NCBI RefSeq assembly: GCF_029360705.1
Contig: NZ_JARKMX010000004.1
Coordinates: 248,001-312,000, forward strand
Direction: 5' to 3'
DNA from: Paraflavitalea pollutisoli
Lineage (GTDB): Bacteria > Bacteroidota > Bacteroidia > Chitinophagales > Chitinophagaceae
DNA length: 64,000 nucleotides
This document shows positions 36,574 to 48,610 of this stretch, piece after piece (positions within the stretch are counted from its first letter, which is position 1; every line of letters starts with the position of its first letter). The notes under the pieces were generated by a model. That model was not told the DNA's origin and made no database searches. It was given only the letters and a program-made list of their open reading frames with translations. Both the position numbers and the translations under genes were made by a program.

Positions 36574-37812
36574 CTAGTTTTTAAATTTGAATTCGATGAT
36601 GATAGGGGAAGTGGCGGGCGGATTGCTTTTGATGAACTTTTCCAGCTCGGGGGGAATGGCCACGTCTTTGTGTTTTTCAAAATAGCTGATCAGGTCGCCG
36701 GCCTTTTGTGTTTTATAGAATTGGTCTTTATTCCGGGTAAGACCAAAATCGGAGAGCAAGGATAAATTATATTGGCTGCTATCCCCTTTGATGTTTTTGG
36801 CTTTGTGCGTGACCTGCGTTTGCTTCTGGTAAATGTATGCTTCCCAGTTATACAGGTAAGCTACCATGAAATACAGGAACCGGTCATTTTCATACATGGG
36901 ATGTATCGCGTGGAGCAGCATCCCGTTGTTGCGTCTGAAATTATCTTTCTCCGTCTTGTTCTTGAAAGGTTTGGTAAAAAAACTCTGGGGCAAGCTGTTT
37001 TCCAGCGGCAACACGACCTGGTAATAGGGGGTGATGCTGTCGTGCACCATTTTGTAAATAATATCGCTGTAAGGGCGCGTAATATAGTTGATATAGGGGG
37101 TGTCCGTTCTGCCGATGCTGATACTTTCCGGTTGATATTGATATTTTAACTCATTGATCCGGTTGTAGGGCCAAAATCCTTTGATGAACTTATTGTCGCG
37201 GTATAGCTTGTACTCGTAATCGAGGCTATCGGTAAAGAGTTCACTCGTTTTGATCACCCCTGCGGCATAGATATCATCGTAAAAGTGATAAGCGCGGATG
37301 ATATCTTTTTGTTCCGGTTTTTCCTTTTTGATGGCAAAGGTGGAGTCATTCAGATCGATCGAATATTTTTTAAAGTACTTTTTGTTTTTGGGACTGCTCC
37401 AGTCCATTTCAATTTTGATCTGGTCTTTGGGCGTAAGGGCATAGGTGCTGTTGTAGCCAAAAAAAATGAGCTGGTTGGTGCGCAGGTCATAAGCGGGATA
37501 CAAGTCGCCTGCGAGCTTCTTATAGCTGATTTTCTTGATATACCGGCCTTGTTTGTCGTACAGTACTAGTTCCTTTGCCTGGTAGTTGCGGATCATGAAA
37601 TAATCCCGGGTCACTTCTACATTGCTGTATTGGGTGAACTGTGCATCCGGTGTTACTTCCAGGGGAATGAAACGCACGGAGTCGATAAATTTGGATTGTT
37701 TCTCGCTACCGGCCGCTTTGGGATGGAGGTAGATCTTCTGGACCTGTGATTGGGTGGATAGAGCGATGCTCAGGCTACAAGCGATCAGGAAAAGGCCACG
37801 AATACAATTCAT
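36574..37812 (-). CDS. exported 6-bladed beta-propeller protein
   Basis: Start 37812 (MNCIRGLFLIACSLSIALSTQSQ, signal peptide) rather than 37836. The rest looks like the DUF4934/DUF5128 propeller proteins of Bacteroidota: FIDSVRFIPLEVTPDAQFTQYSNVEVTRDYFMI, followed by repeated short strands such as LVLYDKQGRYIKKI. About 412 residues. It is located 2 bp before an outer-membrane barrel gene and 72 bp after the HmuY-like gene. Such propellers are often encoded beside outer-membrane receptors and may bind ligand in the periplasm or at the surface. Role inferred only. Confidence 0.75.
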   Translation of the reverse strand: MNCIRGLFLIACSLSIALSTQSQVQKIYLHPKAAGSEKQSKFIDSVRFIPLEVTPDAQFTQYSNVEVTRDYFMIRNYQAKELVLYDKQGRYIKKISYKKLAGDLYPAYDLRTNQLIFFGYNSTYALTPKDQIKIEMDWSSPKNKKYFKKYSIDLNDSTFAIKKEKPEQKDIIRAYHFYDDIYAAGVIKTSELFTDSLDYEYKLYRDNKFIKGFWPYNRINELKYQYQPESISIGRTDTPYINYITRPYSDIIYKMVHDSITPYYQVVLPLENSLPQSFFTKPFKNKTEKDNFRRNNGMLLHAIHPMYENDRFLYFMVAYLYNWEAYIYQKQTQVTHKAKNIKGDSSQYNLSLLSDFGLTRNKDQFYKTQKAGDLISYFEKHKDVAIPPELEKFIKSNPPATSPIIIEFKFKN

Positions 37813-37884
37813 CTTAAGGGTTAGTTGGTCACCCAAAAGTATAGTTGTAAATGTTAAGGCCCTCTTAATACTTTACTTGCGGCG

Positions 37885-38403
37885 TTATTTCAGGATGGCG
37901 TATCGTATGGTATAAAATCCTGTTGGTTCAGATGTGAGTTGATTGCGGTAATAATTGATAATTTGAACCTTGATAAACTGACCGGTGCTGGTCTTCACGA
38001 TGATCACGCGATCGGGAATAGGATTGATAGAATGGTCCTGCATGTCGTACAGGTACCAGCCATTACCACTGCCCTGGGGAATGGCTTTTTGATCACCATC
38101 GGCTTTGTAACCCGATACAGGCGCGGTGTTGAGTTGGTCGAAGGATGCAGTGACGAGTTGTGCAGAATCCTTTTTGGATCCGCTGGTGCCACTGTTGATC
38201 AGTATGGTGGTTTTGTGAAAGGCGATATTCCAATCTCCATACTGACTCACCGCCTTACCTTCCACGAGGTTGATATAAGCCGGTTTTTCACTGCCATCGA
38301 TATTGGCAAGTCGTTTCACCTCCTGCGCAGTGGCTGGTACAGCGATGAGGACGATAAAAACAGTAACGATGGTTTGGGCTATTGCGAAAAATATTTTGTT
38401 CAT
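37885..38403 (-). CDS. HmuY-like exported protein
   Basis: Signal peptide (IAQTIVTVFIVLIAVPATAQ), then about 150 residues with the pattern of the HmuY family: YINLVEGKAV, DWNIAFHKTTILINSGTSGS, APVSGYKADG, GNGWYLYDMQDHSINPIPDRVIIVKTSTGQFIKVQIINYY and a final FYTIRYA strand. HmuY of Porphyromonas binds heme and passes it to a TonB receptor; its heme-ligand His pair is not evident here. The Cys of a lipobox is also absent, so the protein is probably periplasmic. Downstream lie a propeller and an outer-membrane barrel, so the three may form an uptake or assembly set. Confidence 0.8.
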   Translation of the reverse strand: MNKIFFAIAQTIVTVFIVLIAVPATAQEVKRLANIDGSEKPAYINLVEGKAVSQYGDWNIAFHKTTILINSGTSGSKKDSAQLVTASFDQLNTAPVSGYKADGDQKAIPQGSGNGWYLYDMQDHSINPIPDRVIIVKTSTGQFIKVQIINYYRNQLTSEPTGFYTIRYAILK

Positions 38404-38610: not shown

Positions 38611-41067
38611 TTATTCGTATTTGAACCATACCGTAGCCTGGCAGTCTTTGTCGGCCCTGGCCCTTACCCAACGGGCGCTGTATCCTGCGGGGAAAACATG
38701 CGTAACAGTCTTGCCGGCCGGGATGGTAAATTGCCCGTAGGTCTGCCAGCCGTTGAGGTCTACATCAACTTCGAGGGTGATGTTGACGGTTTTGTCGGCC
38801 TGGATGGTCACCGTTTTTTTATCGTAACCCGTCATGAGGAAGGGAAGAGAAGCTGCTCCAGCTTTTACTGCGCTGTTTTTCCATACGCCCCCTTCGCCAC
38901 GCGGTTTGCCCAATGCCCACAGGTCATCGATGGCGCCAAACCACAGGCCATTACCGTCGTTCGAAAAATAATGTCCATCGTTGGTAGCGCCTGTTTGGGT
39001 ACCACTTAACACCAGCAGTCCGCGCCAGGTACAAAAGTCCATGATCTTTTTGTTATGCGTGGTCACGGGACGCATGGCCTTGTAACCTGCTTCGCGGCCC
39101 ACCTCATAAAAAGTACCGTGGGCATTCAGCATCAACCGCTCCGATTCCAGCTCGCGCCGGCCGCGGGGCCATTGGCCGGCCATCGGACGGTCGAAGGCGG
39201 CATGTCCTTTTGGTAAGCGGAAGGTGCCTGTTTTATCGTGCACGATCACGGAGGCGTCGTCGAGGTCGAAATCTTTTTGCAGGGCAAGTATCCGTTGCAT
39301 GGCAGCTGTGCTGTCGGCTGCTGGCTGTATAAAACCAATGTCCTCCTGCACTTCCTGGTAACCGGTGCCAGGCGTTGTCAACGACAATACCTGCAGGTTG
39401 GTATTGTGGGCTGCGGGACGGATAAGGCTGGCGGCAAACGGGCGTTGATCGCTGGCATCGGCGAGGCTGGCAAATAGGGGTGCTGCTTTCGAAGCTTGTG
39501 GAGCACCTACCCAATACAGGTAGGCAGTAGCCACACAGCTTTTGTTGCTGGTAAAGCGGATCCAGTTGGCGCGGAAGCTGGCAGGTAATACCTCGAACGC
39601 ATAGCCACCCGCACCCACTGTGATCGTCTTGTATTTAGTCCACTGGTTGTTACCCGCTTTGTCTATTTCTACCGTAAAGGTGACAGGTGATGGTTGGTTG
39701 TGCACCAGGTGCAGTACTTTTTGCTGCGGGCCATTGACGAGGAAAGCATCAGATGGTTCGTTAGCTTGTACCGTATCGTTGACCCAGGGGCCTCCCCAGG
39801 CATGGGGCGTGCCCCATTGTTTCAATTGCTCGTATTGACCAAACCACAGGTTGGACTGTGAACGACCGGCCATGGGGTTTTCCAGCATCGTCGTTTCATC
39901 GGTCGCCAACACCAGCTGGCCATTCCAGTACGTGAAATCCGGAATATACCGCAGGTGGGTGCTGATGGGGGCAATGCCCGCGCTGTTGGTGCGGGTAAAG
40001 GTTTTGGGGAAGTCGTATAACATGCCGTGCATGTCCATCATCAACTGGCCGTTGCCGATCTCGCGGATGCGTGGCCATTCCGTATACCAGCCACCCCGGT
40101 GATCGTAAGTTTGAGTAGCCTTCGGCAACCGGTACGTGTACCATTGCCCGTTATCGAGCAGTTTGAGGATGACGGATCGACGGTCCCAGCCAATGGCCCA
40201 CAAGGGGCTTTTGTTGTCGGGTGCCCCATAAATACCACCCGGGCCGGTTACATCGGTAAATTGCTTCCGCTCGATGATGTTCCAGGCGGTGCCATTCCAA
40301 CTGGCCAATACACCCATCTCCTCGGGTGTAGCAGGTTGCAGGGAGCCGGCTTTAAGGTCGCCGGGCATTACTTTGTGGGCCGCTACTTCTCCGTTATTGG
40401 CCACTACAAACTGATCTTGTGAGGTATATGCCCCTTTGCCATGCCAGCCCGGTACGGGTTTGTTGAAGAGTTTGGTGGACTGCAGGGTATGCACATCTAC
40501 TTCATACACCATGCCCTCCATATCGTAGAAATATACTTTGTTGGCTGGATCGGTCAGGTGCCTGGCGGTGGCCGTCATACGACCCGGCATTTGTGTAAAG
40601 GGAATGACCCTTACGTTGCCAATACTGTCGATAAAATAGCTGCTGGTGATCAGCTGGTTCGATTCGCGGTGGACCATCCGGTTGGCGGGGGTGCCGCCGA
40701 TACTCTCCGGGTGCACAGTCAGCCGCAGGTCTTTGGTGATGCTGTATAATTTGTCCGAGCTGCCCATGGGGCAGTGGGGCGAGTAGGTCACCATCCACAA
40801 CTGGTTGGCCCAGCCCACCACGGCGCCGATGCCACCTTCAAATCCATCACTCTTTTTGTTAAACTGACCATTGATATCGCCACAGCCAGCGGTGTTCTTA
40901 TCGTTGAAGAGGGCGAGGTGTGGGTACACGCCGCTGATCTGTAAAGGGCGGCGGGTAGTATCGGATGCTGGTGTGCTGGCCGGTTGTTGCTGGGCGGTAG
41001 CTGGCCACGCCAGGCTGGTCAGGGTGATGCTTATCCATAAACTGCGCTGCAGGGTCTTTTTGCTCAT
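38611..41067 (-). CDS. large secreted protein of unknown function with internal duplication, third gene of the SusCD operon
   Basis: No family recognised. Signal peptide (SLWISITLTSLAWPATAQ). The N-terminal ~330 residues have many Trp/Gly-rich strands and look like a beta-propeller (IGAVVGWANQLWMVTYSP, LWAIGWDRRSVILKL). Residues about 340-522 and 642-818 are clear repeats of one another: LMMDMHGMLYDF / LMLNAHGTFYEV, SNLWFGQYEQLKQWG / NGLWFGAIDDLWALG, VTFTVEIDKAGNNQW / VNITLEVDVDLNGW, ANWIRFTSNKSCVATAYLYW / ARWVRARADKDCQATVWFKY. The repeat ends in a small beta-sandwich. It starts 50 bp after susD and is followed by a terminator. It could be a surface glycan-binding protein or a new hydrolase; no catalytic motif was seen. 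Confidence 0.82.
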   Translation of the reverse strand: MSKKTLQRSLWISITLTSLAWPATAQQQPASTPASDTTRRPLQISGVYPHLALFNDKNTAGCGDINGQFNKKSDGFEGGIGAVVGWANQLWMVTYSPHCPMGSSDKLYSITKDLRLTVHPESIGGTPANRMVHRESNQLITSSYFIDSIGNVRVIPFTQMPGRMTATARHLTDPANKVYFYDMEGMVYEVDVHTLQSTKLFNKPVPGWHGKGAYTSQDQFVVANNGEVAAHKVMPGDLKAGSLQPATPEEMGVLASWNGTAWNIIERKQFTDVTGPGGIYGAPDNKSPLWAIGWDRRSVILKLLDNGQWYTYRLPKATQTYDHRGGWYTEWPRIREIGNGQLMMDMHGMLYDFPKTFTRTNSAGIAPISTHLRYIPDFTYWNGQLVLATDETTMLENPMAGRSQSNLWFGQYEQLKQWGTPHAWGGPWVNDTVQANEPSDAFLVNGPQQKVLHLVHNQPSPVTFTVEIDKAGNNQWTKYKTITVGAGGYAFEVLPASFRANWIRFTSNKSCVATAYLYWVGAPQASKAAPLFASLADASDQRPFAASLIRPAAHNTNLQVLSLTTPGTGYQEVQEDIGFIQPAADSTAAMQRILALQKDFDLDDASVIVHDKTGTFRLPKGHAAFDRPMAGQWPRGRRELESERLMLNAHGTFYEVGREAGYKAMRPVTTHNKKIMDFCTWRGLLVLSGTQTGATNDGHYFSNDGNGLWFGAIDDLWALGKPRGEGGVWKNSAVKAGAASLPFLMTGYDKKTVTIQADKTVNITLEVDVDLNGWQTYGQFTIPAGKTVTHVFPAGYSARWVRARADKDCQATVWFKYE

Positions 41068-41117: not shown

Positions 41118-42815
41118 TTAATAATTGGGATTTTGGGTCATATTCGTATTAACACGCCGTTCGCTGGCGGGTATGGGCCACAGGTATTGTTTAGTCTTGT
41201 CGAAGCGACGCTCGAGGATCAATTTGATATCGCTGCCAAAATTGGTGTAGTCGGCCACGCCATCTTCATCGATCTCCGGTGTAGCGGCAAAAGGCCATTT
41301 GGCGGCATCTACACGCGGTGCGGCGGCCCGTGGATCGGGTAGTCCCATGACGGGCCGGGTCAATGCCTTTTCTGCCAATTGCCAGCGAATGAGGTCCATA
41401 TAACGTAGCCCTTCCAACACAAATTCCACCCTTCTTTCGCGGCGCACGAGTTTTTTCAGTTCGGCAGCAGTCATCGCTGCCGTAGCAGCGGGATAGCTGG
41501 CGGTAGCCGTATGGGCAACGCCGTAAGCGCGTGCCCGTACCCGGTTGATGGCTTCCAGTACGCGCGCATTCGTTTCTCCCAGCTCGATACTGGCTTCTGC
41601 AAAAGTCAGGTACATTTCCGCGAGGCGGTAGAGAATGGCGTCGTTGTCTTCTACCAGGCGGTCGGCCCAGGATTGATCGATGCCTTTCTTCCAAAGGAAT
41701 CCTGTAAAGCTGGCAAAAGCCGCCACCGAGCGGGTATCGACATTGCTCACCATCCGGCTGTTCTTGTAGCTCCATACTGTCGTGGAGTCGGGGTGTGGCT
41801 GATACGAAAAGCCCAGCCAGGGCGTACCAAATTCTACGATCGACATCGCCATCCGCGGGTCCCGTTGCTGGAAGGGTTTGTTGCGGTTGTACAGGGGCGA
41901 TTCATCGATGGGTTTGCCGTCGATGCATTCGTAGGCGTTGACGATATCGAATGAAGGGAAATAGGCTCCGTATCCACCGGCGGTACGACTCATGAATTCT
42001 TTTACCCAGCCTTCGGCCGCACTGAATACTTTTTGCTTTTCATCCCGCGGGGTAGACCAGATGATCTCTTTGGATAATTCACCTTCTTTAACGAACAGTT
42101 GCTGATAGTTGGCGTGCAGGGCATAGACTCCGCTCCCTGCCAGCTGGATCACCGAATCGGCGGCTGCTTTGGCCATGGCCCAGTTTTCTGTATACAGGGC
42201 AGTGCGCGCTTTGATGGCAAAAGCCAAGCCCTTCGTGACGCGCCGGATGGAGGCTGAAGTATAAGACGCAGGCAGGTTGGCGGCGGCATAGTCCAGCTCG
42301 GAAAATATAAAGGGAATGATCTCCGCCTTGGGTGTGCGGGCAATCTCGTACGATTCTTCCAATGGCTTAGGTCCGGTCAGGAACGGTACATCACCAAAAT
42401 GCGTGACGAGCCGATAGTACTGATACGCACGGATGAGGCGCATTTCAGCTTCCAGCCGGGCGATAACGCTGGCAGGCGTGTTGGCAGCTGCTTTGTCTTT
42501 GTTGACCAGGAAACTGTTCACGCGCGCAATGGCCTTGTAGCTGTTGAGCCAGTAGGTGCGCACGGCAGCGTCTTCCGAATTCATGTTGCCACTGATCACG
42601 GAGTTGCCGTTCTGCCGGTAGATATTGTTGTCGCCGAAGAACTCGTTGTCGTTGCTCCAGAAATCACCGCGGTACAGGTCATTGACCGCCAGCTCCAGCT
42701 GGGCCTGGTTGGCATAGAATCCCGCTGAGGTGGGATTGGAAGGATCGGAGAGGTCGAGCTTTTTGCAGGCAGGCACCAGGGCTGCCACACAAAGTCCGTA
42801 TAATAGGTTGCGCAT
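41118..42815 (-). CDS. SusD/RagB-family surface lipoprotein
   Basis: Outer-membrane-associated ligand-binding lipoprotein that forms a lid on the SusC channel. The lipobox is VAALVPACKK; starts at 42824 and 42815 are both possible, and 42815 gives the more usual signal length. SusD features are present: LDLSDPSNPTSAGFYANQAQLELAVNDLYRG at the N-terminus (broken up by gaps in most relatives), RAYQYYRLVTHFGDVPFLTGP, and the C-terminal LIRWQLAEKAL..LWPIPASERRVNTNMTQNPNY. About 566 residues. It lies 26 bp after susC. It binds an oligomer, probably a glycan, but neighbours give no substrate clue. Confidence 0.96.
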   Translation of the reverse strand: MRNLLYGLCVAALVPACKKLDLSDPSNPTSAGFYANQAQLELAVNDLYRGDFWSNDNEFFGDNNIYRQNGNSVISGNMNSEDAAVRTYWLNSYKAIARVNSFLVNKDKAAANTPASVIARLEAEMRLIRAYQYYRLVTHFGDVPFLTGPKPLEESYEIARTPKAEIIPFIFSELDYAAANLPASYTSASIRRVTKGLAFAIKARTALYTENWAMAKAAADSVIQLAGSGVYALHANYQQLFVKEGELSKEIIWSTPRDEKQKVFSAAEGWVKEFMSRTAGGYGAYFPSFDIVNAYECIDGKPIDESPLYNRNKPFQQRDPRMAMSIVEFGTPWLGFSYQPHPDSTTVWSYKNSRMVSNVDTRSVAAFASFTGFLWKKGIDQSWADRLVEDNDAILYRLAEMYLTFAEASIELGETNARVLEAINRVRARAYGVAHTATASYPAATAAMTAAELKKLVRRERRVEFVLEGLRYMDLIRWQLAEKALTRPVMGLPDPRAAAPRVDAAKWPFAATPEIDEDGVADYTNFGSDIKLILERRFDKTKQYLWPIPASERRVNTNMTQNPNY

Positions 42816-42841
42816 GGTTGTCATGTTTGTGTTGATGGAGA

Positions 42842-45800
42842 TCAGAACCGGATGCTGGCGCCTGCCATCAGGGTTCTTACAATGGGGTAAGTGAAGTTGT
42901 TGGATTCGGGATCGAGGAATTTCGGGAATTTGCTCAGGCTGAACAGGTCATTGCCCGCTACATACAAACGGATCGCCTGGATCTTTGCTTTGGCGGTGAG
43001 TGCTACTGGTAGCGTATACCCGATGGTGAGGTTCTTGACCCGGAAATACCCCCCGTTGATGAGCCAGTGATCCGACAAGGTATAATTGTTGTTGTTCGTG
43101 GTGAGGTTGGTCGACAGGCGGGGATACACGGCGGCGAGGTTCTGCGCTTCCGAATTATTACGGCTGTAGAATTTGCCGACGATGCCGGTTGGCACATTTC
43201 CGAAAGCAGAGAGGAATGGCATGATCGCTTCGCTGTTGAGCCGGGTGAGTACCTTGCCCACCCCTTGAAAAGTGAGTGCCACATCGAAGCCCCCATATTC
43301 AGCACGCAGGTTGCCACCATATATCCAGCGGGGTAGGGAGCCGCCGAGAATCTCCCGATCGTCGGGCGTGATCTTGCCATCGGGTTTGCCATCGGGACCA
43401 CTGATATCGCGGTATTTGCTGTCGCCCACTTTGGTGTTGTTGCCGTTGAGCGGGGTAGGACCGGCAGCGATCTCGGCAGCTGTCTGATAAAAGCCTTCGA
43501 AGCGGTAGCCATACCAGGCAGCATATTCGGCCCCTTTTTGAATAAGTTGGTCGCCGAGGGTTTGTGTGCCACGCAGGTCGCCTACTACCGAGCGCGCGTC
43601 AGAGAGGTTGGCGGCTACAGAATACCTGAGCTTGCCGATCCGGTCTCTCCAACCAAGTTCTGCTTCCCAGCCTTTCACGGTCATATTGCCCGCGTTCTGG
43701 AAAGGCCGGTCGTAGCCGATGTACAGGGGGATATCCAGTTGCAGCAGGATATCGGTGGTGGCTTTCCGGTAGTACTCGCCGGTCAGTGTTAACCGGTTAT
43801 CGAGGAAGGCGGCATCGACACCGATATTGCTGGTGGTCGTGGTTTCCCAGGTGATGTTCTCGACATTCAATACCTGCTGGCCGAGGCCAGGTTGTGGTAC
43901 CACAACACCATTCTGGTAAAACAGGGCGCTGCTGAAATTGAGTAGGGCCTGGTAAGCATAGTTGTCGATGCGTTCATTACCGGCCTGCCCCCAGCTGCCG
44001 CGCAGCTTCAGGAAAGAGAGCCACTGGGCGCGCTGCAGGAATTTTTCTTCCGATACCGTCCAGCCGGCAGATACCGACGGAAACCAGGCATTGCGGTATT
44101 GCGGGGCAAAGCGGGAAGACTGATCAAGCCGCAGGTTACCCTGTATATAATATTTGCCCTGGTAATTGTATTGCAGCCGGCCAAAGGTGGAGTGCAGTCC
44201 CAGGTCGCTCGCCCCTCCATAACTTTCCATGATCTCGCGGGTGCCGGCACTCAGGTAGGGAAAGTCGAGCAGGGGAAAGCCGGTGCGCATACCTGTCATC
44301 GATTCCGACTTACGGTAGATCTCTTCATACCCCACCATTATATCCACGGCATGGTCGCCAAACGTTTTGTTGTAGTTGGCCAGCAGTTGTCCATCCATCC
44401 ATAGGTTTTCGATGCGCGTTTCCGTGAGGATGGCTTGTGGGGTACTGTTGGCATAGACGACGCGGGCGGGGTCTGCCTTATCGTAGTAGCGGATGGGTTT
44501 TACGAAGTGTTTGGTTTTGTCCCAGTCGAAGGTGGGCGATACCTGTGCCGTAATGGTGAGGCCGGCGATGGGTTTCAGTTGCAGCCCAATGCGACCCAGG
44601 AGCTGGTTGTATTTGTTCAGGCTCGTTCCGCCTTCGCGCAGCTGGGCGATGGGATTGAGGCCGTCTTTGCCAGGGGCGTAGCGGCCATCATCATAGTAGT
44701 CATCGTACCAGGCCGGAAAGATGCGGGCATCATAGATGGGGCCGTAAGCGGGTACATCGCTGTTGGTAAGGCGATAGGCGAGATCGATATTGGCGGAGAG
44801 GAGGCGGCTGATCTGCAGGTCGTTGTTGACCCGGAACTGAAAGCGTTCGTATTGGTAGTTGTCATAGAAAGCACCAGTCTTATTGTATCCCAGCGAAGCC
44901 TTCGTCTTTAGTTTTTCGGACCCACCGGTGAATACGAGGTCGTGCCGTTGGCGGGGTGCCTTCCGGTGCGTGAAGATCGTTTTTTGCCAGTTGGTATTGG
45001 GAAACTTATCGGGGTTTGCGCGGTTGCTGTCGAGGTAACTGTTGATGAAATCATCGGAATAAAAATTGGTGCCGCCATCGTTGATGCGTTGTTCATTGAA
45101 ATAGCGGAAATAATCCTGGATGCCCACATATTCCGGCTGGGCCGTGGCCTGCTGCACCCCGTATTCATAGTTGTAATCGAGGTTGCTGACGCCTGCTTTG
45201 CCTCTTTTGGTGGTAATCACGATGACGCCCGAAGCGCCCTGCGAGCCGTAGATGGCGGCGGAGGCGGCATCTTTCAATACCGTGAGTGATTCCACATCAT
45301 TGGGGTTGACGAGATCGATGCTGTTGGCCGGCACCCCATCGATGATGATGAGGGGAGCGGTGCTGTTGAGTGACGTGATGCCCCGGATGCGGATGGTAGC
45401 ACCACCGCCGGGAGTGGAGCTGCCGCGGGTGACGGTGACACCTGCCACGCTGCCTTGCAGGGCTTCCGATACCTGGGTGGTTTGGCGGCCGCCGACGTCT
45501 TTGGCGCCGATCGTGGCTACGGCGCCGGTGAGGTCACGTTTTTTCTGGGTACCATAACCAACGACCACGACATCGTCGAGGTTTTTCTCTGCCCGGGCGA
45601 GTGACACGGTAAAGGGCCCTTCGCCCGTCACGGCCAGGGAATAGGTCAGGTAGTTGACCAGGGATAGGTTGAGTAGCCTGGTGTTGGCAGGCACGTTCAG
45701 CACAAATTTCCCGGAGTCGTTGGTAGTGGTGCCCAGGTTTGATTGGGCAACGGTAATGCTGACCCCAGCCAACGGTTGATGGGTGGCGGCATCGGTCACC

Positions 45801-45886
45801 GTACCGCTGACCGTGCGGGTCTGGGCCCTGGATATACTGGCCAGCATAAGCAGGACAATCGTTAGTAATGGCAATCTCAATCGCAT
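42842..45886 (-). CDS. SusC/RagA-family TonB-linked outer-membrane transporter
   Basis: Start at 45886 (MRLRLPLLTIVLLMLASISRAQ, signal peptide); the longer frame to 45988 adds an unlikely leader. The N-terminal CarboxypepD-regulatory-like domain (TVSGTVTDAATHQPLAGVSI) is followed by the SusC signature VVVGYGTQKKRDLTGAV and plug motifs (RIRGITSLNSTAPLIIIDGVP, LKDAASAAIYGSQGASGVIVITTKRG). A long barrel ends in TLMAGASIRF with terminal Phe. About 1014 residues, typical. It is the first gene of a three-gene leftward operon (susC, susD, 818-residue protein) and is divergent from a membrane-bound putative regulator. Confidence 0.97.
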   Translation of the reverse strand: MRLRLPLLTIVLLMLASISRAQTRTVSGTVTDAATHQPLAGVSITVAQSNLGTTTNDSGKFVLNVPANTRLLNLSLVNYLTYSLAVTGEGPFTVSLARAEKNLDDVVVVGYGTQKKRDLTGAVATIGAKDVGGRQTTQVSEALQGSVAGVTVTRGSSTPGGGATIRIRGITSLNSTAPLIIIDGVPANSIDLVNPNDVESLTVLKDAASAAIYGSQGASGVIVITTKRGKAGVSNLDYNYEYGVQQATAQPEYVGIQDYFRYFNEQRINDGGTNFYSDDFINSYLDSNRANPDKFPNTNWQKTIFTHRKAPRQRHDLVFTGGSEKLKTKASLGYNKTGAFYDNYQYERFQFRVNNDLQISRLLSANIDLAYRLTNSDVPAYGPIYDARIFPAWYDDYYDDGRYAPGKDGLNPIAQLREGGTSLNKYNQLLGRIGLQLKPIAGLTITAQVSPTFDWDKTKHFVKPIRYYDKADPARVVYANSTPQAILTETRIENLWMDGQLLANYNKTFGDHAVDIMVGYEEIYRKSESMTGMRTGFPLLDFPYLSAGTREIMESYGGASDLGLHSTFGRLQYNYQGKYYIQGNLRLDQSSRFAPQYRNAWFPSVSAGWTVSEEKFLQRAQWLSFLKLRGSWGQAGNERIDNYAYQALLNFSSALFYQNGVVVPQPGLGQQVLNVENITWETTTTSNIGVDAAFLDNRLTLTGEYYRKATTDILLQLDIPLYIGYDRPFQNAGNMTVKGWEAELGWRDRIGKLRYSVAANLSDARSVVGDLRGTQTLGDQLIQKGAEYAAWYGYRFEGFYQTAAEIAAGPTPLNGNNTKVGDSKYRDISGPDGKPDGKITPDDREILGGSLPRWIYGGNLRAEYGGFDVALTFQGVGKVLTRLNSEAIMPFLSAFGNVPTGIVGKFYSRNNSEAQNLAAVYPRLSTNLTTNNNNYTLSDHWLINGGYFRVKNLTIGYTLPVALTAKAKIQAIRLYVAGNDLFSLSKFPKFLDPESNNFTYPIVRTLMAGASIRF

Positions 45887-46187
45887 ACAATAAGCAGTGT
45901 TTGTTTGGAGAAAGCATAAAAATATCGGCAGGCGGCAGGCGGTTCCAAAACGTGGGCTGTTCAAAGCCCGGTACAAAATTATGAGCAAGCCAGCGCGCTA
46001 GTGGTCAGTGGCTTACTTAGCGAAATTGTTTTAATATGAACAGGTCTGCACCTGGCTTTTGTCAGGAAAAGCAGGGGAGGCTGATGGCGGGCGGCTTTGA
46101 TTTTGCGGTTTTGTAATTAATGTTAAATTGCGCATCGACTACCTGCGGGACGAAAGCGGGTGTTTGTTGGACATGTTGTAGGACTAT
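45887..46187. promoter_or_regulatory. divergent intergenic region between susC and the putative membrane regulator
   Basis: 301 bp without a convincing gene. Read toward susC, TAATTTTG (45974-45981 as CAAAATTA on the plus strand) fits the TAnnTTTG -7 element, about 90 bp before the ATG; no clear -33 box was found. No strong inverted repeat was noticed. Confidence 0.45.
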
Positions 46188-47549
46188 ATGAAAACCTCAG
46201 GCGGCCCCCATACGAATAAGGATGTATTCCATTACCTCGAAGCTTGTTGTTGGCTGGTGGCAGGCCGCTATGATCACAAGCCGGTTGCCAGTTGGTCCAA
46301 CCTCGACTACATGAAGCTGAGCGGGGTGATCTACCGCCAAACCAATGTACAGATCAGTGCCAGTACCCTGAAGCGGGTGTTTGGCAAATTCAGGACCGGC
46401 GAACGCTATTATCCCCAGCAGGCCACGCGTGATGCGCTCGCCCGTTTTACCGGCTTTGCCGATTGGGAGGCATTTGTACGCTACCAAGATGAGCAACCCA
46501 GAACGGCCCATTCGCCTGAACCCTCTTCTAATTTAATCGAAGTGCATCCCGTTTCCGAAGCAACAGCGCAACCCGCAAGTTCGCGCAGCGCACGGAGGTG
46601 GTTGGTGTTGGTGGGACTGGCGTTGGTGGCACTTGTGTCGGGGTGGTTCCTGTTACCGACAAAAAAAGCGGAACAGCTGCCCGACTTGCGGGGCGTACAA
46701 TTGTTGTGCAGTAATCCCACCGGCAAAGCGCCACACTCAGCTATTTTCAGTTTGCAGGTGCCGCGGGAATTCAAAGGACCGCTGGACCAGTTTACGATGG
46801 TGTTTGACGATGGCAAGCGGAAGCTGCCATTTACCGGGGGCAAGTTGCTGCATTATTATGAGATACCTGGCCGCTACTATGCGGTGCTGCAATACGATGG
46901 CAAGCCTGTGGATACGGCGGTGGTGTACCTGGCTACCAATAATTGGGAAGTGGTGACAGAGATGGAGCGCGATACGATGCGCGTGTATCCGGTGGCGGCA
47001 CTGCACACGCCTTCGCCCGAAGGATTGGGGGTTACTACCCAGGCTTTGCAGCAATCGGGCATCGATACCAATCATACTTTTTATGTGCATTTCTCACGCA
47101 TGCAGCCATTCGATATCGATGGCGATAATTTTGAACTGACGGCCCGGGTACGTACTTCGGTTGACCGGCCGGGCGTGCGTTGTTCGCAGGTGAAGATGGA
47201 ACTGTATGGCGACCGGTCCAAACATCGAGTGTTGTTCCTGAAACCGGGCTGTATCAGCTGGAGCAACCTGCGCTTGTCGGACGTGGAGATGGATGGTAGC
47301 CGGGATGATCTCAGTTTCCTGGGGGCCGATCTGTCGACGGGTGGAGTGATCAGGTTGCGCATTGAAAAAAAGAAAGCGCAGCTTTGGCTCGACAGTCAAT
47401 CTGTTTATACCGGTGGGTACACGTTTCCACTGCAGCGGCTGTACGGCTTACGTATTTCCTTCGCCGGCATCGGGTATATCGATAGTGTGGGTATCCGCGA
47501 CCTGGCCTCTGGTGGCGTATACCAGGAAGCGCTGCGATTGTCCCAGTAA
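46188..47549 (+). CDS. one-pass membrane protein with N-terminal HTH-like domain and periplasmic sensor region (putative PUL regulator)
   Basis: Not a named family to my knowledge. Residues about 10-100 form a cytoplasmic helical domain with NLDYMKLSGVIYRQTNVQISASTLKRVFGKF and PQQATRDALARFTGFADWEAFV. The ISxxTLKRVFG and TLDALARF-like pattern reads like a DNA-binding helix-turn-helix seen in other Bacteroidota proteins. A transmembrane helix spans about 138-156. The periplasmic part (~295 residues) is beta-rich: a PKD-like stretch (FTMVFDDGKRKLPF..YEIPGRYYAVLQYDG), then a concanavalin/LamG-like domain (DGDNFELTARVRTS..LRIEKKKAQLWLDSQSVYTGG). It is divergent from susC, where PUL regulators usually lie. 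A membrane-bound one-component regulator is the best reading; this is inference. Confidence 0.75.
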   Translation: MKTSGGPHTNKDVFHYLEACCWLVAGRYDHKPVASWSNLDYMKLSGVIYRQTNVQISASTLKRVFGKFRTGERYYPQQATRDALARFTGFADWEAFVRYQDEQPRTAHSPEPSSNLIEVHPVSEATAQPASSRSARRWLVLVGLALVALVSGWFLLPTKKAEQLPDLRGVQLLCSNPTGKAPHSAIFSLQVPREFKGPLDQFTMVFDDGKRKLPFTGGKLLHYYEIPGRYYAVLQYDGKPVDTAVVYLATNNWEVVTEMERDTMRVYPVAALHTPSPEGLGVTTQALQQSGIDTNHTFYVHFSRMQPFDIDGDNFELTARVRTSVDRPGVRCSQVKMELYGDRSKHRVLFLKPGCISWSNLRLSDVEMDGSRDDLSFLGADLSTGGVIRLRIEKKKAQLWLDSQSVYTGGYTFPLQRLYGLRISFAGIGYIDSVGIRDLASGGVYQEALRLSQ

Positions 47550-47786: not shown

Positions 47787-48113
47787 ATGGAAACAAGAAG
47801 AGATATTTTTCAGGCGATCGCCGACCCCACGAGGCGGGCGATCATGGCGTTGATTGCCTTGCAGGCGATGACGCCCAATGCGCTTGCCGATCATTTCAAT
47901 ACGAGCAGGCAGGCAGTGTCGAAGCATATTAAGATATTGACAGAGTGCGAGCTGGTAAAGCAGGAGCAGCAAGGCAGGGAGATCTATTATTCACTCCAAA
48001 TTCAAAAAATGAAAGAGGTTGATAAATGGTTGGACCAATTCAGAAAGCTTTGGGTGACCCAATTCAATCAACTGGACAATGTATTAGCAACCATTAAAAA
48101 ACAAAAAAAATGA
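47787..48113 (+). CDS. ArsR-family transcriptional repressor
   Basis: Winged-helix regulator of 108 residues ([50 protein letters not shown]). It lacks the metal-binding ELCVCDL motif of metal sensors, so it belongs to the non-metal group that is commonly paired with SRPBCC/AHSA1 proteins (the SdpR type). Its stop overlaps the next ATG (ATGA at 48110-48113), so the pair is translationally coupled. Two palindromes just upstream are likely its own operators. Confidence 0.94.
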
Positions 48114-48610
48114 CAAAGGATCTGCAATTTGATTTTACGGTTGACAAAGCGGCCAAGACCGTAGTCATCACGAGGGAATTCGATGCTGAACTTTCACTGG
48201 TATGGGATGCTTTTACCACGGCTGAGCTGCTGGACCAGTGGGTAGCGCCCAAGCCCTGGAGCGCCAGAACGAAACACATGAATTTTGAAGTGGGGGGCAG
48301 CAGGTTGTATGCGATGGTGAGTCCGGAGGGGATGGAGCGCTGGGCTCTGCAGAAATATACCGCGATCACGCCGAAGACTCATTTCAAGATGTTTAATGCG
48401 TTTGCGGATGCAGCCGGTAATCCGGAAGCAGAGGGGTCTGATTGGGACTATCAATTCACCGACCAGGGGGAGACAACTAAAGTAATTATCTCTATCTATA
48501 ACGAATCGATGGCTCGTCTGGAGCGGATGATTGAAATGGGCTTCAAAGAGGGTTATGCTGCTTCGATGCAGAACCTGCAGGCGCTGTTACTATCATTGTC
48601 CAACAAATGA
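48110..48610 (+). CDS. SRPBCC/AHSA1-family protein
   Basis: START-like ligand-binding protein of 166 residues: [33 protein letters not shown] is the family opening and the C-terminal helix [23 protein letters not shown] closes the cavity. Usually annotated activator of Hsp90 ATPase homologue, but bacterial members paired with ArsR regulators probably bind small hydrophobic ligands. It overlaps both neighbours by 4 nt (ATGA), so three proteins are made from one coupled message. Confidence 0.93.

Follow-up and report, generated by a model that had tools for sequence, protein, structure and literature searches.

In Bacteroides, the regulation of glycan loci is understood mostly in terms of HTCS, ECF/anti-sigma systems, and SusR-like regulators (PMC3878776). 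The accessible portion of a review on hemicellulase genes names HTCS, ECF/anti-sigma systems, and catabolite repression as the common systems (PMC10766802). SusR itself is described as sitting in the membrane, with its sensor in the periplasm; it binds DNA through a C-terminal domain that does not resemble the DNA-binding domains of other factors, and it activates susC-type operons (PMC3878776). More generally, transmembrane transcription regulators are reported to be widespread and enriched in Bacteroidota in the available text of a survey conducted with Pfam DNA-binding models (PMC10269533).

Here, we describe a protein family represented in a 64,000-nucleotide stretch of the Paraflavitalea pollutisoli genome (hereafter, the window). 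We consider it likely that the family member in the window is a membrane-anchored one-component transcription activator, with a lectin domain as its sensor, for a neighboring susC-susD-g818 operon. Like SusR, as far as the accessible text describes it, the protein would be a membrane protein with a periplasmic sugar-sensing part and a cytoplasmic DNA-binding domain, the latter predicted here (PMC3878776). Unlike SusR, whose DNA-binding domain is C-terminal in that description, the window protein would carry this domain at its N terminus, and its C terminus is a ConA-like sandwich (PMC3878776). Its predicted sensor, a PKD domain plus a ConA-like lectin domain, also differs from that of SusR; SusR is set apart here by its described layout, not by sequence. 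A cytoplasmic DNA-binding domain (again predicted here), a membrane helix, and an outside sensor in one component are also features of the ToxR/CadC kind of regulator in the available text of the survey (PMC10269533). Unlike those regulators, the window protein has no Trans_reg_C or OmpR-type winged-helix match in Pfam. ToxR and CadC use an OmpR-type winged helix. Pfam also returns no histidine kinase, receiver, or AraC domain, which distinguishes the protein from HTCS, and no sigma-70 region 2 or 4 or FecR domain. ECF sigma/FecR systems comprise two proteins and an STN-bearing SusC, whereas here there is one protein and a SusC without STN.

Because the N-terminal domain matches no Pfam model, a Pfam-based survey of the kind described in the accessible part of PMC10269533 would be expected to miss it. 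In a literature search, with subscription papers mostly outside its reach, none of the titles and abstract openings listed concerned the family. The preliminary description of this locus had proposed a regulatory mode different from HTCS, SusR, and ECF/FecR. The general mode is known, given the precedent of SusR in the accessible text of PMC3878776, and that part of the proposal falls; the protein family, its DNA-binding domain, the lectin-containing sensor combination, and the predicted operator appear to be new.

Domain layout and the N-terminal domain

The reading frame at positions 46188 to 47549 (plus strand) is open and encodes 453 amino acids plus a stop codon. It is divergent from susC, whose ATG lies at 45886 on the minus strand, with 301 bp between the two start codons. 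An AlphaFold2 model from a 72-row alignment (mean pLDDT 88.4, pTM 0.69) comprises an N-terminal helical domain (amino acids 11-102, positions 46218 to 46493), with helices at residues 11-28, 38-52, 58-64, 78-87, and 93-102, followed by a single transmembrane helix (134-155, 46587 to 46652). C-terminal to this helix are two beta-rich regions, a PKD-like beta-sandwich (171-259, 46698 to 46964) and a ConA-like lectin/LamG beta-sandwich (298-438, 47079 to 47501). The hydrophobic stretch is also present in relatives of the same layout. An Arg-rich stretch precedes the membrane helix, and the N terminus is thus predicted to be cytoplasmic (inside-positive). Cys332 and Cys355, both C-terminal to the membrane helix, are invariant in all 72 rows, as would suit a periplasmic disulfide.

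The window protein has no match in Pfam, and its only two matches in NCBIfam are SDR oxidoreductase models (E 0.024 and 0.09), far below the cut-offs. Domain labels come from relatives and from structure. Among 72 relatives searched at E values up to 0.5, PF18911 (PKD_4) matches 44 (best 1.6e-5), PKD 21, 3keto-disac_hyd eight, and Laminin_G_3 three. The second sandwich aligns with ERGIC-53 (VIA Z 12.1, rmsd 3.2, 152 aligned), which points to a ConA-like lectin/glucanase fold, and its Foldseek rows include Emp47, CBM66, and GH16-type glucanases. Structure matches of the whole model to large multi-domain enzymes and toxins were rejected as signs of kinship, since they reflect the common ConA-like fold. 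The anatomy first read from the letters, namely a separate N-terminal domain, one membrane helix, and a PKD/LamG-like part beyond it in a gene divergent from susC, is thus borne out, with the PKD/LamG label supplied by relatives and by fold. The PKD-like and ConA-like part is predicted to be extracytoplasmic, and fold and genome context suggest that its ligand is a glycan.

The linker between the N-terminal domain and the membrane helix (amino acids 107-131) has a pLDDT under 50. A low-confidence stretch at this place would suit regulated proteolysis, whereby the N-terminal domain is freed from the membrane as a soluble factor. Against this, regulators of the ToxR/CadC type work from the membrane, and we regard release as quite unlikely. 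The reading that we favor is of a regulator that acts while membrane-anchored.

The N-terminal motifs first read from the letters form the most conserved region of the protein: W36, T60, L61, K62, R63, K67, P76, and T80 are invariant across 72 sequences. Five of these (T60, L61, K62, R63, and K67) lie on or just past helix 58-64, where a recognition helix is expected; the proposed recognition helix and next residues (amino acids 58-67) correspond to positions 46359 to 46388. Modeled alone, the domain reaches a pLDDT of 85.3. Foldseek ranks the TP901-1 CI repressor's DNA-binding domain first (probability 0.91), at an E value of 0.43 that is below significance. The top VIA rows are mostly repressor-type HTH and POU-S structures (6t90, 3zhi, 6rnx, and 1y9q), and the unrelated chains 6b9s and 6b9t are also among the best rows. 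The best VIA match, 5d4z, has a Z of 6.0 (rmsd 3.6, 73 aligned), and values below about 13 may be chance for helical bundles. The HTH-like character that had been proposed from sequence therefore finds lambda-repressor-like HTHs as its best structural neighbors, all below significance.

An HTH assignment by sequence was rejected. The protein has no Pfam match, no HTH family is among the 25 listed of the 41 Pfam families matched by the 72 relatives, and an N-domain profile had no match among PDB sequences. The likeness to XRE, CI, and POU-S domains is weak and at the level of fold only, and unlike XRE/HTH_3 proteins, the window protein has no HTH_3-type match in Pfam. A lambda-repressor-like HTH is thus suggestive only, and DNA binding by the regulator is proposed from this fold together with the genome context.

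The weakness of the HTH match leaves room for another reading, in which an unlinked regulator binds the operator described below and the window protein is either a RodZ-like membrane protein with a protein-binding HTH fold or an accessory sensor. RodZ, a protein of the cell-shape machinery, shares the HTH-transmembrane-periplasmic build. We consider this very unlikely in light of how the operator and the gene family are distributed, and continue with the window protein as the candidate DNA-binding regulator.

Family spread and gene neighborhood

The operon opposite the regulator gene lies on the minus strand. It comprises a susC-type TonB-dependent receptor gene without an STN domain (42842 to 45886; TIGR04056, E 1e-256), a gene for a susD-type lipoprotein (41118 to 42824; PF07980, 3.8e-46), and a conserved third gene, g818, which encodes a secreted protein of 818 amino acids without a family match (38611 to 41067). 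The best Pfam match of g818 has an E value of only 0.081, and NCBIfam and PDB sequences yield none at E up to 1. The g818 product is a candidate new glycan-active protein.

Other genes flank this arrangement in the window. An HmuY-like gene and a gene for a DUF5128 six-bladed propeller follow the operon (36574 to 38403, minus strand); blastp gave no match to either one in the two nearest relatives (L015 and L016), over the stretches covered. Downstream of the regulator (47787 to 48610, plus strand) is an ordinary pair with overlapping ends, an ArsR-type regulator gene and then an AHSA1-domain gene.

We find relatives of the regulator across much of the phylum. All five genomes of the genus hold a relative aligned over most of the length, seven of 59 near genomes hold a relative, and a profile of the N-terminal domain finds matches in 34 of 395 Bacteroidota genomes; each of these counts includes the window's own genome. 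A scan of named Bacteroidota genomes yielded 226 relatives, and we kept the 80 best. Hosts include Spirosoma, Dyadobacter, Pedobacter, Sphingobacterium, Chitinophaga, Mucilaginibacter, Flavobacterium, Echinicola, and others. In a tree of 55 chosen members, built by a quick method, clade A (n = 26, SH-aLRT 100) holds the window protein, clade B has 17 members plus one long-branch row (SH-aLRT 99), and clade C has 11 (SH-aLRT 98).

Among the 80 kept loci, 65 carry a relative with at least 35% identity. In 59 of these the regulator gene is divergent from susC, in five from g818, and in one (L091) from neither. In comparison, only three of 730 other genes of at least 150 amino acids in the same loci are divergent from susC; genes were our own ORF calls, labeled by blastp against the window's proteins. 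The proposed association with susC genes in other genomes is thus found in 64 of the 65 close relatives, counting those beside g818. In L091, a 20.1-bit copy of the operator described below lies before a susC about 5 kb away. Furthermore, several loci have a SusC/SusD pair of a different subfamily (25-31% identity) and still keep g818. According to labels read from the sequences, members of clade C have SusC/SusD as neighbors, together with GH2-, GH28-, GH43-, or rhamnosidase-like genes. The neighbors of clade B encode secreted proteins that are LamG-like or 3-keto-disaccharide-hydrolase-like.

The gene that follows g818 varies among relatives. It encodes a GH29-type alpha-L-fucosidase in L016 and, as read from sequence, an apparent MFS transporter in Pedobacter (L067 and L097). 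The regulator reading frame is split or shortened in L113, L114, and L115 (129 plus 313 amino acids in L114), by frameshift or assembly error. Pedobacter ghigonis has a second, diverged regulator copy (L097:1-782, minus strand), which shares 33% identity with the window protein. It is located some 9 kb away from the other copy and is cut by the end of the locus.

A candidate operator and its position

The intergenic region 45887 to 46187, for which a binding test had been proposed, contains a conserved candidate operator in activator position. This is TGTTCA-N6-GGTACA-N6-TGAGCA (45958 to 45987, plus strand): three half-sites 12 bp apart, with the third inverted. An expectation-maximization search of 61 divergent intergenic regions (66 collected, five dropped as broken or too short) gave the consensus TATCCAAAATTATGGACAACCTAA, which another half-site precedes by 12 bp; the layout is TGNYCA-N6-half-site-N6-TGRNCA. 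In most loci, the operator lies 26-35 nt from the upstream-most start codon of the regulator.

The site was ranked with a matrix from 33 training loci (of Cytophagales type, such as Spirosoma and Dyadobacter, with one labeled Flavobacterium) scanned over 28 other whole loci. In 17 of these 28, the top rank goes to the best intergenic site, which is among the top three in 21. This test is partly independent, as the consensus that seeded the training came from all loci. The window's site ranks first of 127,954 positions under this matrix and is a weak copy, at 13.3 bits. The 11 loci in which the site does not rank first are L056, L067, L071, L078, L097, L101, L107, L110, L112, L124, and L126. 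L056 does have a 21.8-bit site, a short way into an over-extended susC ORF; in L067, L071, L097, L107, and L112, the gap holds no clear copy though regulator and susC are present, a point that favors an unlinked binder.

With a matrix from all loci, a site above 13 bits is found in the gap of 53 of the 64 named loci with a usable gap, where site counts are inflated by relatedness (many loci are Dyadobacter or Spirosoma). Across 1.57 Mb, 38 sites at other places exceed 13 bits, and several of these fall in regulator gaps shortened by ORF calls. The triple half-site occurs once in the window against 0.01 expected from dinucleotide shuffles, with the middle of the pattern relaxed to fit the window copy. 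The strict layout matches in 13 of 139 loci, one match being the window's own copy; the match in L110 is outside the intergenic region. A genome-wide count with a 17-base pattern and up to one mismatch was set aside as too noisy to tell whether the site is confined to this locus (6 to 20 matches per genome versus 0 to 17 for the reversed pattern, in 15 genomes); the window's own operator does not fit that pattern.

We find that the operator keeps a fixed distance from the susC promoter. Of the 58 loci whose site scores 10 bits or more, 39 have CAAAnnTA (the -7 box TAnnTTTG in reverse) at 30-34 bp from the first half-site (shuffles, 0.1), and none of the 58 has a copy at another distance within the up to 110 bp searched. 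The exact box is absent in the other 19; the window has a -7-like box with one mismatch, TATTTTTA (45917 to 45924, minus strand), 33 bp from the operator, and its susC transcript is predicted to start at about 45912. In a flavobacterium, the TAnnTTTG box spans -12 to -5 (PMC9723704). On that scale, the operator would occupy about -46 to -75, immediately upstream of the -33 region. Put differently, the window's operator appears to be in activator position. Activators sit just upstream of the -33 region, and it is on this position that we favor activation over repression.

Six clade C loci provide a second view, as the regulator gene there is co-directional with the glycan genes. Clade C sites were scanned with a matrix from divergent loci, clade C loci L122, L124, and L126 among them. 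The best adjacent site, downstream of the regulator and before the glycan genes, ranks first in L119, L121, L133, and L134, second in L132, and 22nd in L120. Four of the six (L121, L132, L133, and L134) have TAnnTTTG 31-32 bp past the site, and L119 and L120 have none at the expected spacing. In L121, two sites overlap, one on each strand (21.5 and about 18 bits), and the spacing is taken from the lower-scoring one, which has the usual orientation to the operon. L130, a clade C locus with a different layout, has its best adjacent site upstream, at rank five. Since the co-directional loci keep the site before the glycan genes, the site belongs to the target operon rather than to the regulator's own start.

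These positions bear on a repressor, in which the same protein and operator would hold off both divergent promoters until the lectin domain binds a glycan. Divergently encoded regulators often autorepress, and the operator is also near the regulator's own start in most loci, both of which favor repression. A repressor's site, however, would more often overlap the -33 and -7 boxes; the operator here keeps its fixed distance from the -7 box, upstream of the expected -33 box, and its place is retained in four of six co-directional loci. We therefore judge repression unlikely and prefer activation.

As an activator, the protein might work as follows. Its cytoplasmic HTH would bind half-sites of the type TG(A/T)(C/T)CA upstream of the -33 region of the operon, and the membrane helix would join this HTH to a periplasmic PKD-like spacer and the ConA-like lectin domain. 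The lectin domain would sense an oligosaccharide imported by the same SusC/SusD pair, and ligand binding would cluster or re-orient copies of the protein such that their N-terminal domains fill the three half-sites (about -46 to -75). Filled half-sites would then recruit RNA polymerase to susC and close a positive feedback loop. The repeated half-sites suggest a need for two or three N-terminal domains side by side, an arrangement that clustering in the membrane, driven by ligand, would supply.

Clade B appears to use a different arrangement of a similar half-site. The matrix from divergent loci finds no sites beside the clade B paralogs; there, TTCA half-sites occur every 10-11 bp. A pair lies upstream of 17 of 22 members versus 10 of 537 control upstreams, and a perfect triple upstream of 12 of 22 versus three of 537. 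This pattern was set after most of the upstreams had been viewed, and the controls still contain upstreams of members and partners, which makes the comparison stricter. The pair is absent upstream of five members (L024, L131, L030, L032, and L034).

Two plasmid relatives, both annotated as hypothetical proteins, came from a later protein search. The Spirosoma oryzicola gene has a clade A site that ranks first (27.9 bits, spacing 33). The Persicobacter psychrovividus gene has no clade A site; it is divergent from an alpha-N-acetylglucosaminidase gene, and the reverse strand of the gap carries one 11-bp TTCA pair.

Other regulators at the same operon

At E values up to 1e-20, g818 is found in five of 395 genomes, namely the window's own and four without a match to the N-domain profile. 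In two of these four (L141 and L143), ECF sigma and FecR genes precede a SusC with an STN domain, at the same operon place as the window's regulator. In another (L144, overlapping L140), a full HTCS takes this place and is likewise divergent from susC. The fourth, L142, has no susC within the 17 kb fetched and gives nothing for the argument of replacement. In contrast to the STN-bearing SusCs, those of the window and of L015 lack STN. Thus, with ECF/FecR or HTCS at the g818 operon elsewhere, the window protein occupies the place of a dedicated regulator.

This replacement in three of the four genomes also argues against an unlinked binder. So does the distribution of the operator, which goes with the gene family in several orders, whether the gene is divergent or co-directional, and on a plasmid. 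A further point is that the paralogous clade B has its own arrangement of a like half-site beside its own genes. We infer that the window protein itself is the binder of the operator.

Genomes without the regulator do not clearly lack the operator, as weak matches of 9.2 to 12.4 bits lie in their gaps. The best matrix scores in L140, L141, L142, and L143 are 10.1, 15.3, 12.8, and 12.4 bits. Ahead of susC or a sigma gene, L140 has a site of 9.9 bits, L141 one of 10.1, and L143 two, of 9.2 and 12.4 bits; within their loci, these rank first to fourth. These weak matches are A/T-rich and without CCA/TGG cores, and may reflect chance, a remnant, or function; the 12.4-bit operator-like site at L143:13207 is upstream of the ECF sigma gene.

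More broadly, it seems probable, at a lower level of confidence than our reading of the window protein itself, that the family is a fourth class of PUL regulator. Such a class would be Bacteroidota-wide, with an undescribed membrane-anchored DNA-binding domain, TTCA/CCA half-sites in helical phase, and a lectin switch, and it would be evolutionarily interchangeable with HTCS and ECF/FecR. The N-terminal domain, which is also fused to NACHT-like ATPases and to other membrane proteins, would then serve the phylum as a general DNA-binding module. If our reading of the window protein holds, loci that lack HTCS, ECF/anti-sigma, and SusR-like regulators would gain a direct sensor with a predictable binding site, and regulons, perhaps even ligands, could be predicted from sequence. 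The family would also supply a small sensor for sugars that comes with its own defined operator, and domain libraries would gain a new DNA-binding domain. With an operator proposed, the regulator claim can be tested directly at the bench.

The N-terminal domain is also found outside the layout described here. In other Bacteroidota, it is fused to long P-loop (NACHT/STAND-like) proteins (L035-L041; for example, L035:4-1773 on the minus strand, L036:1450-3210, and L040:1417-3177). L035 has a weak Pfam NACHT match (E 0.0033), and PADLOC gives weak and partial matches in two of four tested fusions. More distant matches (L045-L054; for example, L052:1417-2583) mostly have a hydrophobic stretch, with unrelated short C-terminal parts.
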